64,000 bases of DNA from Euzebyales bacterium. Its GTDB lineage: Bacteria > Actinomycetota > Nitriliruptoria > Euzebyales > JAHELV01. Shown here one piece after another: positions 25,270 to 29,471 of the stretch. Every line of letters begins with the position of its first letter. Position 1 is the first letter of the stretch. The stretch is from NCBI GenBank assembly GCA_035461305.1, contig DATHVN010000109.1, positions 62,001 through 126,000 on the forward strand, in the 5' to 3' direction. The position numbers and the translations under genes were made by a program. Below the pieces are notes generated by a model that worked only from the letters and a program-made list of their open reading frames with translations, made no database searches and was not told the origin of the DNA.

Positions 25270-25300
25270 CGAGGGGCCGGAGCAGGTCTGTGCGGTGATT

Positions 25301-25393
25301 GGAGCGAGCGCAGGGGGTGGCTGCGAGCAGGGTGTGGCTGGAGCTCCTTGGGCCGTTGTGAGCGGAGCGAGCGCAGCGAGTGGCCGCGAGCAA
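25301..25393 (+). repeat. Direct repeat of 30 bp (two copies)
   Basis: Copies at 25301-25330 and 25364-25393 both start GGAGCGAGCGCAG and match at 26 of 30 positions. They lie in the gap before the leu leader, immediately upstream of its -35 element. They could be mobile intergenic repeats or binding sites. Confidence 0.7.
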
Positions 25394-25394
25394 G

Positions 25395-25423
25395 TTGACA
25401 GCTGGCGCGCGGACGCGTAGTAG
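25395..25423 (+). promoter_or_regulatory. leu operon promoter
   Basis: A perfect -35 TTGACA (25395-25400), a 17-bp spacer, and -10 TAGTAG (25418-25423). Transcription would start about 25430, at the GTG of the leader frame (25432). This is the best-matching promoter in the window. Confidence 0.7.
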
Positions 25424-25431
25424 TAGGGGCC

Positions 25432-25524
25432 GTGCAGATCTCCCGGCCCGACGTACCTTCGCGCCCGACGGGCGCGATCTTCGGGCTGCTGCTCGCGGGC
25501 CTTCTCGGCCTCCTCATTCTTTGA
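25432..25524 (+). CDS. leuL: leuA leader peptide (Leu-rich)
   Basis: A 30-residue frame from GTG 25432 to TGA 25522. Its last fourteen residues are F-G-L-L-L-A-G-L-L-G-L-L-I-L: eight Leu and one Ile. The promoter just upstream would place the transcription start at the GTG, so it is probably read as a leaderless message. A strong hairpin starts three bases after the stop. Position, Leu content and downstream leuA fit leucine-responsive attenuation. A membrane-inserting micropeptide is an alternative reading of the hydrophobic end. Confidence 0.75.
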   Translation: MQISRPDVPSRPTGAIFGLLLAGLLGLLIL

Positions 25525-25526
25525 CG

Positions 25527-25559
25527 CCGCGGGGCGGAATCTCTCCCAACCCCCCGCGG
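25527..25559 (+). terminator. Attenuator hairpin before leuA
   Basis: CCGCGGGG (25527-25534) pairs perfectly with CCCCGCGG (25552-25559) around a 17-base loop. CGCGGG at 25494-25499, inside the Leu codon run, could instead pair with CCCGCG (25553-25558), giving a competing structure. There is no T-run, so termination strength is uncertain. Confidence 0.5.
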
Positions 25560-25613
25560 AGCGCCAGTCCGGGTCCACACCCAGCCCCCTGGTCAACGTG
25601 AGGAGACCGCACG

Positions 25614-27170
25614 ATGCCCCCCAACGCTGTACAGATCTTCGACACGACGCTGCGCGACGGCGAGCAGGCGCCCGGGATCTCGCTGGGCGTCAAGGAGAAG
25701 CTCGAGATCGCTGACCAGTTGGCCAGGCTGCACGTCGACATCATCGAGGCCGGCTTCCCCATCACCTCCCAGGGGGACTTCGACGCCGTCAAGGCGATCG
25801 CGGAGGACGTGGGCACCGTTCCCGACGCGCCCGTCATCGCGGCGCTCGCCCGCTGTGCGCGTGGCGACATCGACCGTGCGGCCGCCGCGCTGAAAGGTGC
25901 GGCGCGCTCCCGGATCCACGTGTTCCTGTCGACGTCGGAGATCCACCGGCGCGCGATGCTGCGGGCATCGGAGGAGGAGATCCTGGCGTCGACCGCCGCC
26001 TCGGTCCGCCACGCCCGCAGCTACACCGACAACGTCGAGTTCAGCCCGCAGGACGCCACCCGCACCGACCACGACTTCCTGGTGAAGGTCGTCGACGTGG
26101 CGGTCGAGAACGGGGCGACGACGGTCAACATCCCGGACACGGTCGGCTACGCGCTGCCCCACGACTTCGGCGCGCTGATCGCCGAGATCGTCGGCCGGGT
26201 CGGCGACGACGTCATGGTCAGCGTGCACTGCCACAACGACCTGGGTCTGGCGGTCGCGAACTCGCTGGAGGCGGTCCGTAACGGTGCCCGCCAGATCGAG
26301 GTGGCGGTCAACGGCATCGGTGAGCGCGCGGGCAACTGCTCCATGGAGGAGGTCGTCATGGCGCTGGCGACGAGGTCGGATCTGCTGGAGCGCTCGACGC
26401 AGATCGCGACGCGCGAGATCGCACGCACCTCACGTATGGTCACGGCTCTCACCGGCTATCCGGTCCAGTTCAACAAGGCCGTCGTTGGTCGCAACGCGTT
26501 CGCCCACGAATCCGGCATCCACCAGCACGGCGTGCTCCAGGACCGCCTGACCTACGAGATCATGCGTGCCGAGGACATCGGGTTGACGGGCGCCCAGATC
26601 GTCCTGGGCAAGCACTCGGGCCGCCACGCCTTCGCCACTCAGCTGGCCGAGCTGGGCTACGAGCTCGCGGACGACGAACTGGCGCGAGCGTTCTCACGCT
26701 TTAAGGAGCTGGCCGACCGCAAGGTCGAGCTGACCGACATCGACCTCGAGGCGATCGTCGCCGACGAGGTCTCGGCCAGCGCCGACGACGTGTTCGAACT
26801 GCAGTCCCTGCAGGTCTCCGGTGGCACCGCGACGGCACCAACCGCCACGGTCCGCGTCCGCAGGACGGCCGACGACGTCACGATCGACGAGTCGGCGATG
26901 GGAGACGGCATGGTCGACGCTGCCTGCGGCGCGATCCGCCGCGCAGTGGGGATCGAGGCGAGGTTGGTCACCTTCAACGTCGCCGCTGTCACCGGGGGCA
27001 TCGACGCCCTCGGCGACGTGACCGTGCAGGTCGAGGTCGACGGCAGGCGCATCAGCGGCCGCGGCGTGTCAACCGACATCGTCGAGGCCAGTGCACGCGC
27101 CTTCCTGTCGGCCATCAACAAGTCGGTACGCCTGCGCCACCGCGCGCGGGCGATGACCGACACCCCCTGA
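25614..27170 (+). CDS. leuA: 2-Isopropylmalate synthase
   Basis: Condenses 2-ketoisovalerate with acetyl-CoA, the first committed leucine step. The 518-residue protein is of the bacterial LeuA type. IFDTTLRDGEQAPGISL opens the TIM barrel, VSVHCHNDLGLAVANSLEA supplies metal ligands and FAHESGIHQHGVL is the C-terminal barrel signature. The LeuA regulatory dimer domain (residues 390-510) is present, so leucine feedback inhibition is likely. GAGGAG precedes the ATG. It follows the leader peptide and attenuator. Confidence 0.95.
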   Translation: MPPNAVQIFDTTLRDGEQAPGISLGVKEKLEIADQLARLHVDIIEAGFPITSQGDFDAVKAIAEDVGTVPDAPVIAALARCARGDIDRAAAALKGAARSRIHVFLSTSEIHRRAMLRASEEEILASTAASVRHARSYTDNVEFSPQDATRTDHDFLVKVVDVAVENGATTVNIPDTVGYALPHDFGALIAEIVGRVGDDVMVSVHCHNDLGLAVANSLEAVRNGARQIEVAVNGIGERAGNCSMEEVVMALATRSDLLERSTQIATREIARTSRMVTALTGYPVQFNKAVVGRNAFAHESGIHQHGVLQDRLTYEIMRAEDIGLTGAQIVLGKHSGRHAFATQLAELGYELADDELARAFSRFKELADRKVELTDIDLEAIVADEVSASADDVFELQSLQVSGGTATAPTATVRVRRTADDVTIDESAMGDGMVDAACGAIRRAVGIEARLVTFNVAAVTGGIDALGDVTVQVEVDGRRISGRGVSTDIVEASARAFLSAINKSVRLRHRARAMTDTP

Positions 27171-27299: not shown

Positions 27300-27446
27300 A
27301 TGACCACCATCGACCCCGACGTCGCGGCCCAGCCCACGGCGACGGACACCGGCGACAGCACCGCGACCACACCCCTGGAGCCCGTCGTGCGCATCGACGG
27401 CGAGCTCGCGGGCAGACTGCTGGCCAGCGCACGCTGGCAGCAGTGA
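27300..27446 (+). CDS. 48-residue unknown protein coupled to leuC
   Basis: ATG 27300 follows AGGAGCAGGAG closely, one of the strongest ribosome-binding sites in the window. The frame ends with TGA at 27444, overlapping the GTG start of leuC as GTGA. The product is Thr/Asp-rich for 25 residues, then [20 protein letters not shown] and a Trp-Gln-Gln end. I recognise no family. It is not a Leu-rich leader. Overlap and signals suggest real translation, either to couple leuC or as a small LeuCD-associated protein. Confidence 0.6.
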
Positions 27447-28858
27447 CAGAGGCAGGGATGCCCGAGACTCCCAGGACCCTGATCGACAAGATCTTCGACA
27501 GCCACGTCGTCGTCCAGGACGACGGCCCAGCACTGCTCTATGTCGATCTCCACCTCGTCCACGAGGTCACAAGCCCACAGGCGTTCGAGGGGCTGCGGCT
27601 CTCGGGTCGGCGGGTGCGCCGCCCGGAGCTGACGCTGGCCACGATGGACCACAACGTGCCGACGACCGACCGATCGCTGCCGGTGGCCGACGAGCTGTCC
27701 GCCGCCCAGATCGAGGCGCTGCGCAGCAACTGCGAGGAGTTCGGCATCCGCCTGTTCGACCTGCACTCGCGGCAGCAGGGCATCGTCCACATGATCGGCC
27801 CCGAGCTCGGGCTCACCCAGCCGGGCATGACGATCGTCTGCGGCGACAGTCACACGGCGACGCACGGCGCGTTCGGTGCGCTGGCGTTCGGCATCGGCAC
27901 GAGCGAGGTCGAGCACGTGCTGGCCACCCAGACGCTGCCCCAGGGGCGGCCGAGGCAGATGGTAGTCGAGGTCGACGGCGACCTGCCGTTCGGCGTGACC
28001 GCCAAGGACGTCATCCTGTCCATCATCGCCGCGATCGGCGTCGATGGTGGCAACGGCCACGTCATCGAGTACCGCGGCAGCACGGTCGCGGGCCTGTCCA
28101 TGGAAGGCCGCATGACGATCTGCAACATGTCGATCGAGGGCGGTGCCCGGGCCGGCCTGATCGCGCCCGACGAGACCACCTTCGCCTACCTCAAGAACCG
28201 CCCGCACGCGCCGCAGGGCGACCAGTGGGACGAGGCCCTGGCGTACTGGCGATCGCTGCCGACCGAGGACGGCGCGATGTTCGACCGCGTGGAACGCCTG
28301 TCCGCTGCCGACGTCGAGCCAACGGTGACGTGGGGCACCACCCCCGCGATGAGCGTCCCGGTAGGCGGGCACGTCCCGCACCCGGAGGACACACCGGACC
28401 CGGCGCACGCCCAGCGGGCGCTCGAGTACATGGGTCTCCAGGGCGGCGACGCCATCACCGACATCACGCTCGACCGCGTGTTCCTCGGCTCGTGCACGAA
28501 CGCCAGGATCGAGGATCTGCGCGCGGCCGCGACCGTCGTCGCCGGCAGACGCGTCGCAGACGGCATCCACGCGATGGTGGTGCCCGGCTCGTACCCCGTG
28601 AAGCTGCAGGCCGAGTCCGAGGGCCTTGCCGACGTCTTCGTCGACGCCGGCTTCGAGTGGCGCGAGCCCGGCTGTTCGATGTGCCTGGGCATGAACCCCG
28701 ACATCCTGGCACCCGGTGAACGCTGCGCGTCGACGTCGAACCGCAACTTCGAGGGCCGGCAGGGTAGAGGCGGACGCACCCACCTGGTGTCGCCCGTGAT
28801 GGCCGCGGCGGCCGCGGTCCACGGGCACTTCGTCGACGTCCGCGACCTGACCGACTGA
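27443..28858 (+). CDS. leuC: 3-Isopropylmalate dehydratase large subunit
   Basis: Iron-sulphur aconitase-family subunit that isomerises 2- to 3-isopropylmalate, 471 residues. [21 protein letters not shown] is typical of the family. The three cluster cysteines are in [13 protein letters not shown] and [16 protein letters not shown]. The GTG at 27443 overlaps the preceding small gene's stop. leuD starts 19 bases downstream. Confidence 0.97.
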
Positions 28859-28877: not shown

Positions 28878-29471
28878 GTGGAGCCACTCACCGCAGTCTC
28901 CGGCCGTATGGCCCCGCTGGACCGTGCGCACGTCGACACGGACCAGATCATGCCGAAGCAGCACCTCAAGCGCATCGAGCGGACAGGCTTCGGCGACCTC
29001 GTGTTCAGCGACTGGCGCGCCGACCCGGACTTCGTGCTGAACCGGCAGCGGCACGCCGGTGCGACGATTCTGGTCGCCGGCCCGAACTTCGGTTCGGGGT
29101 CGTCCCGTGAGCATGCAGCATGGGGTCTGCAGCAGTACGGCTTCGATGCGATCATCGCGCCGTCGTTCGCGGACATCTTCCGCAGCAACTGCGCGAAGAT
29201 CGGCTTGCTGACCGTCGTCCTGTCCGCCGAACGCTGCGGGGAACTGATCGCCCTGGCGACCGACCAGCCGCATGTCGACATCCACATCGATGTGTACGAG
29301 CAGAGCGTCCGGACACCGTCCTGGATGGAGCACTTCGAGATGGACCGGCACACGAAGCGTGTGCTGACCAAGGGCCTGGACTCCATCGACCTCATCCTCA
29401 CCCAGGAGGGCGACATCGCCGGCTTCGAGGCATCCCGACCGTCGTTCCTGCCGGTGGCCGCGAGCGCCTGA
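28878..29471 (+). CDS. leuD: 3-Isopropylmalate dehydratase small subunit
   Basis: The swivelling-domain partner of LeuC, 197 residues. It has TDQIMPKQHLKRIERTGFG, the phosphate-binding GPNFGSGSSREHAAWGLQQYG and APSFADIFRSNCAKIG. The start is GTG 28878 with only a weak purine-rich site; an operon with leuC is clear. leuB, needed for the next step, is at 39.1 kb instead. Confidence 0.96.
   Translation: MEPLTAVSGRMAPLDRAHVDTDQIMPKQHLKRIERTGFGDLVFSDWRADPDFVLNRQRHAGATILVAGPNFGSGSSREHAAWGLQQYGFDAIIAPSFADIFRSNCAKIGLLTVVLSAERCGELIALATDQPHVDIHIDVYEQSVRTPSWMEHFEMDRHTKRVLTKGLDSIDLILTQEGDIAGFEASRPSFLPVAASA

Follow-up and report, generated by a model that had tools for sequence, protein, structure and literature searches.

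A conserved, probably leaderless leucine leader of leuA in a Euzebyales bacterium, and its likeness to the actinobacterial LEU element

The DNA analysed here, referred to as the window, is a stretch of 64,000 nucleotides from the genome of a Euzebyales bacterium (contig DATHVN010000109.1, positions 62,001 to 126,000), and all coordinates are those of the window. Its forward strand carries leuA (25614 to 27170), which was assigned to a 2-isopropylmalate synthase of the short type (518 amino acids) by sequence reading and by its match to leuA family models, and the nearest named relatives of which are in Egibacteraceae and Nitriliruptoraceae assemblies. On the same strand follow a 48-codon frame (27300 to 27446) that overlaps the start of leuC by 4 bases, leuC (27443 to 28858), and a leuD-like frame (28878 to 29471), the last two named from sequence reading. 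Upstream of leuA, a sequence-only reading had placed a promoter at 25395, a leucine-rich frame starting with GTG at 25432, and a hairpin at 25527 to 25559, and all three were found there.

The leader frame (25432 to 25524, forward strand) consists of 30 codons with the translation fMQISRPDVPSRPTGAIFGLLLAGLLGLLIL, ends with TGA at 25522 to 25524, 89 bases before leuA, and contains only one start codon. All eight of its Leu codons fall within the final 12 codons (25486 to 25521), a run that ends CTC CTC ATT CTT. To see how widely this arrangement occurs, 65 other genomes of the class, Nitriliruptoria, were searched. It was found that the motif CT[TC]-stop-[CT]GCCGC was present upstream of leuA in 39 of the 39 class loci taken in; the upstream region of locus L112, which has no leader on reading, had been left out beforehand. 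In the 34 of these loci with readable starts, a promoter-like TTG hexamer with a spacer of 16 to 18 bases (17 or 18 except in one) is followed by a start codon 6 to 10 bases past the −10, and by a leader of 27 to 41 codons with 4 to 10 Leu in the final 12. The last sense codon is almost always the rare CTT, which accounts for 54 of the 228 Leu codons in the leader tails of the class (24%) compared to 0.8% in the leuA genes; this preference may serve either stalling or pairing. A covariance model of the leader gave one strong match in the genome of the window and mostly one per related genome, standing before short-type leuA wherever that gene was in the searched sequence. Of the matches beyond the class, a single one was at leuA (genome G089), and because the model has only four pairs, the outside matches, which are mostly not leuA leaders, were not used. 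The frame, its stop, and its Leu codons are conserved, and there is very little doubt that the leucine-rich frame before leuA senses leucine. That a leucine-rich frame should stand by chance beside an unrelated promoter is a reading to which we give next to no credence: we would expect GC-rich DNA to abound in open frames and in CTC and CTG codons, but the conservation of the arrangement across five families of the class refutes it.

The promoter has the −35 hexamer TTGACA (25395 to 25400), a spacer of 17, and the −10 hexamer TAGTAG (25418 to 25423), with 8 bases between the end of TAGTAG and the GTG; immediately upstream (25300 to 25394) is a repetitive, GAGCG-rich stretch (GAGCGGAGCGAGCGCAGCGAGTGG). 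The promoter had been described as the best in the window and as a consensus promoter. TTGACA-N16-18-TA occurs just once in the entire window, both strands considered (0.16 expected). However, a strict sigma-70 scan of the window missed it, since the final T is absent from TAGTAG, a poor −10 when judged by the consensus. Therefore, the consensus label rests on the −35 hexamer and on conservation: within the order, TTGAC-N17/18-TA stands at the equivalent place in every one of the 18 genomes that could be tested, that of the window being one of them. Because the first search for starts had admitted in-frame starts only, it was repeated blind to frame, and each of these 18 members proved to have an ATG or GTG 7 to 10 bases past the −10 that shares frame 0 with the stop of the Leu run, with no intervening stop, although the leaders differ in length (27, 29, 30, 33, 35, 36, and 37 codons). 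The other families, in which the −10 sequences are weaker, mostly do not conform to this stricter pattern.

A spacing of this size between the −10 and the start codon is typical of leaderless genes. Transcription is thus predicted from the sequence to start at the GTG at 25432 or within about 3 bases of it, and a leaderless start of the leuA message is very likely, because the distance of 7 to 10 bases is conserved and because the message of the Streptomyces lividans homologue has been mapped as leaderless. The claim that the leucine-rich frame lies directly at the leuA promoter is upheld, and if the transcript does start at the GTG, ribosomes would have to load on its 5′ end without a Shine-Dalgarno site.

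Two bases past the leader stop begins the hairpin P1 (25527 to 25559), formed by CCGCGGGG (25527 to 25534) and CCCCGCGG (25552 to 25559). P1 was found in the aligned leaders of the class, with four invariant pairs and with A-T in place of G-C in three loci (L011, L012, and L021), so that a conserved, probably regulatory hairpin does stand behind the leader frame. Its counterpart in the LEU element, as published in 2005, is helix P1. A pseudoknot helix, P2, may form between CCC in the P1 loop (25545 to 25547) and GGG at 25571 to 25573 (overall 25545 to 25574), with only three pairs in the window. In relatives, P2 is strong (11 bp in L017, 8 bp in L011 and L012), and the combined p values for the pairing were 3e-4 in family f2 and 4e-4 in family f3, with no significance in the genus of the window or in family f4; permutation within families is uninformative for P2, as the helix is near-constant within them. 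Covariation was also seen for a different pairing of the P1 loop, with the leuA Shine-Dalgarno sequence (8 of 5000 permutations within families). When the whole class was aligned and folded with MAFFT and RNAalifold, the loops of different families were misaligned, so that only the four invariant P1 pairs emerged and there was no covariation term; the helices were therefore parsed genome by genome. A comparison with Rfam gave no match to any curated covariance model at the gathering score, and only a chance-level one of 13.5 bits on the other strand (E 8.5).

The leuA Shine-Dalgarno sequence was computed to pair with the Leu codons in a further helix, P0, formed by CTCCTCAT (25510 to 25517) and GTGAGGAG (25598 to 25605), the latter of which includes the Shine-Dalgarno GAGGAG (25600 to 25605). 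In the free RNA, the predicted pairing of the Shine-Dalgarno sequence with the last 12 codons was 0.83 in the window and 0.72 on average, exceeding 0.5 in 29 of the 34 genomes. Synonymous recoding lowered this mean from 0.72 to 0.52, and in each of 14 replicates the value was lower. The P0 helix score over all genomes was 18.8 for matched arms, relative to 16.3 when arms were exchanged between families (0 of 5000 permutations) and to 16.5 after synonymous recoding (0 of 300); permuting within families only gave a weak result (191 of 5000). Part of the pairing is unavoidable because CUC runs complement GAGG, and for the window alone, 21% of synonymous recodings attain its P0 score. In locus L002 (genome G003), a duplicated insertion (CACACGTCACGTGCCTCATGTAGCGAAGCGGTAGG twice) lies between P2 and the leuA Shine-Dalgarno sequence and gives a longer leuA leader, and there the Leu codons and the Shine-Dalgarno sequence pair over 10 bp despite the insertion.

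The effect of a ribosome on this pairing was simulated. With the ribosome on the Leu codons or on the stop, the predicted accessibility of the Shine-Dalgarno sequence rose from 0.19 to about 0.4, and with the ribosome at codon 10 or 15 it stayed at 0.20. In the fold model, ribosomes at the stop and at the Leu codons could not be told apart, and a switch of this kind would therefore depend on dwell time.

The interpretation that we favour, and consider reasonably probable from sequence comparison and fold modelling, is that this is the leucine leader of a leuA-leuCD operon and, as a variety of the actinobacterial LEU element particular to its lineage, acts through P0 by translational attenuation. 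Transcription would begin at the GTG at 25432 or only a few bases away from it. When Leu-tRNA is ample, the ribosome would translate the whole CTC/CTT run and come off at the TGA, which lies at the foot of P1. The Leu codons could then pair with the leuA Shine-Dalgarno sequence, enclosing P1 and, in relatives, P2, and leuA would be poorly translated. In leucine shortage, the ribosome would stall on the Leu codons and block P0, and leuA would be translated. This direction of control is what we infer, and it may be accompanied by an effect on transcription, for example through Rho acting on untranslated leuA.

The sequence-only reading had taken the hairpin at 25527 to 25559 to be a terminator. 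In classical transcription attenuation, P1 would terminate, a hairpin in the first half of the leader (H1, described below) or a pairing of the tail would serve as antiterminator, and the ribosome on the leader would decide between them. P1 is followed by AGCGCCAGTCCGGG and no U-tract; 25560 to 25600 contains no T run, none is visible behind P1 in the listed sequences of the relatives, and a terminator scan of the window returned chance-level sites only, with none at P1. P1 also sits within the conserved P0/P2 framework. Some relatives (L133, L135, L137, and L162), which are Acidimicrobiia-like by their resemblance to the named Acidimicrobiia locus L035, do have leaderless Leu leaders with a GC-rich hairpin and then a genuine T-tract behind them, and the fixed place of H1 is as expected of a pause hairpin. 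On balance, we regard this mechanism as unlikely here, and masking of the Shine-Dalgarno sequence is better supported than termination at P1.

Only a slim chance is given to Rho-dependent attenuation, in which the leader would govern the exposure to Rho of C-rich RNA past it and P0 would act mainly by leaving leuA untranslated. A C-rich stretch does lie at 25574 to 25590, but such C-richness is ordinary for a GC-rich genome. Rho has been suggested for cys leaders that have no terminators (PMC1262725), and a title cited in PMC13236596 refers to Rho-shaped leader termination in Mycobacterium tuberculosis. However, this mechanism leaves the pairing between the Leu codons and the Shine-Dalgarno sequence unexplained.

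It was reported that mutations in the Leu codons of the Streptomyces coelicolor leuA leader gave effects inconsistent with classical attenuation, which speaks against attenuation and led to the idea that the element is a protein-binding site, with a DEAD-box helicase proposed in 2005 and the leader frame secondary (PMC1262725). That explanation is improbable for the leaders considered here, in which the frame, the start, the stop, and the Leu run are kept although the length and the sequence of the leader vary. The mutation result would be equally expected if the Leu codons double as an arm of P0.

Under the translational attenuation that we favour, the timing of the ribosome against the polymerase, which had been raised as a difficulty, matters less because the leuA Shine-Dalgarno sequence would be masked. 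If timing does matter, a feature absent from the earlier reading could supply it. The hairpin H1 (TCGCGCCC[GAC]GGGCGCGA, 25459 to 25477) occupies nucleotides 28 to 46 from the start codon and is conserved in position: the best stem was centred at nucleotides 36 to 42 in 30 of the 34 genomes, relative to a mean of 3.9 and a maximum of 11 in shuffles. The 34 genomes have 25 different 5′ arms, and both G-C and C-G occur at register 30/44. Folding in the first half of the leader is stronger than in shuffled sequences (mean z −1.55), with a combined p that is inflated by shared ancestry. Our guess is that H1 is a candidate polymerase pause hairpin or one that insulates the 5′ end. In a tentative and rather doubtful extension, the leader would be a two-stage leaderless attenuator, in which H1 (+28 to +46) makes the polymerase pause and wait for a ribosome loaded on the bare 5′ end; that ribosome would then be translating the CTC/CTT run just as P1, P2, and the leuA Shine-Dalgarno sequence emerge, and the device would be shared by a separate leuC operon in some genomes. 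If so, leaderless initiation would come with its own synchronising device.

Leaders of the window type, with a Leu-rich frame, TGATGCCGCGG, and a hairpin at about nucleotides 30 to 44, were also seen at loci L197 (G012:C1:4023200-4023900), L198, and L199. They precede a small frame (MTKIKLTVPPDQTPAEEAALVA..., MTVIKVTVPPDSTPEEEARLV...), which in L197 is followed by leuC, as is the 48-codon frame in the window. In this leuC-operon leader of L197, the hairpin CCGCC[ACTTC]GGCGG lies at nucleotides 30 to 44, the place matching that of H1. These leaders point to a leucine regulon that extends past leuA.

The way in which the LEU element works has been unclear since 2005, partly due to the paradoxical results of the Streptomyces Leu-codon mutations. 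A variant in which the stop is clear of the structure and the Leu codons covary with the Shine-Dalgarno sequence points to codons with two jobs, as sensor and as anti-Shine-Dalgarno, and in this variant the dual role could be tested by the use of synonymous Leu codons. It also extends leaderless leucine leaders to a further, little-studied class of Actinomycetota and adds the positionally fixed hairpin H1, which is worth testing as a polymerase pause.

Seliverstov et al. (2005, PMC1262725) described the LEU element of Actinobacteria, which lies upstream of leuA and comprises a frame with a run of Leu codons, a pseudoknot, and a base stem in which these codons pair with the leuA Shine-Dalgarno sequence. 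The leader of the window shares with it the place upstream of leuA, the short Leu-run frame, the lack of a terminator, and the base stem (although 21% of synonymous recodings reach the score of the window on its own). The pairing of the hairpin loop further downstream, as a pseudoknot, is clear in relatives and weak in the genus of the window. It differs in that the stop is directly at P1, whereas the classical frame runs into P1; in its length of 27 to 41 codons, compared to about 15; in the conserved hairpin at about +37 and the nearly constant CTT at the end; and in the gene controlled, the short leuA of 518 amino acids rather than the long TIGR00970 type. The classical element is found before long-type leuA in some genomes of the class of the window (for example MRNVELLLLRCRGEVG in L191), and G051 has both forms (L111 and L193). 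Recoding at in-frame TGAs of long-type leuA matches is not claimed; a long uninterrupted frame was present in six of the seven loci read, and in the seventh (L194) the gene runs past the end of the stretch taken.

A leader peptide translated from a leaderless message had been considered unusual, which does not agree with what is known from other Actinobacteria. Mapping of transcript starts in S. lividans showed LeuL1, the leader of leuA, to be leaderless, along with most of the other leader peptides (PMC8079986). LeuL1 of strain TK24 (MRFGLLLLSCRGEGL), like the leader of the window, is a leaderless Leu leader of leuA with no typical terminator; it differs in having 15 codons, an ATG, a Leu run near the start, and a start mapped by RNA-seq rather than predicted. 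The same peptide, MRFGLLLLSCRGEGL, was found upstream of leuA in L127, L129, and L130. The ilvB leader of Corynebacterium diphtheriae is leaderless (PMC5784534), and mycobacteria translate any mRNA that starts with AUG or GUG (PMC4633059). The leaderless polycysteine frames of Mycobacterium smegmatis, as described where they are cited, are attenuators (Canestrari et al. 2020, cited in PMC9031893 and PMC13236596); by that description, and not by sequence, they resemble the leader of the window in being leaderless, in carrying a run of the regulated amino acid, and in controlling the translation of the next genes, and they differ in the amino acid, cysteine, and in the genes. Attenuators of the trp/ilvB type have in common with it a leader peptide rich in the end-product amino acid and stalling as the signal, whereas the window has no U-tract terminator and the output is probably leuA translation. 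At L133, L135, L137, L162, and L035, leuA is preceded by a leaderless Leu leader (MNRRELLLLT and similar) with two hairpins and a T-tract behind it, and these are candidate true transcription attenuators. Taken together, the leader of the window is of the LEU-element kind by function and, on most of the features tested, by architecture, and it is a distinct variant. The leaderless leucine-leader layout recurs across the phylum, and the kind is already known in other Actinobacteria.
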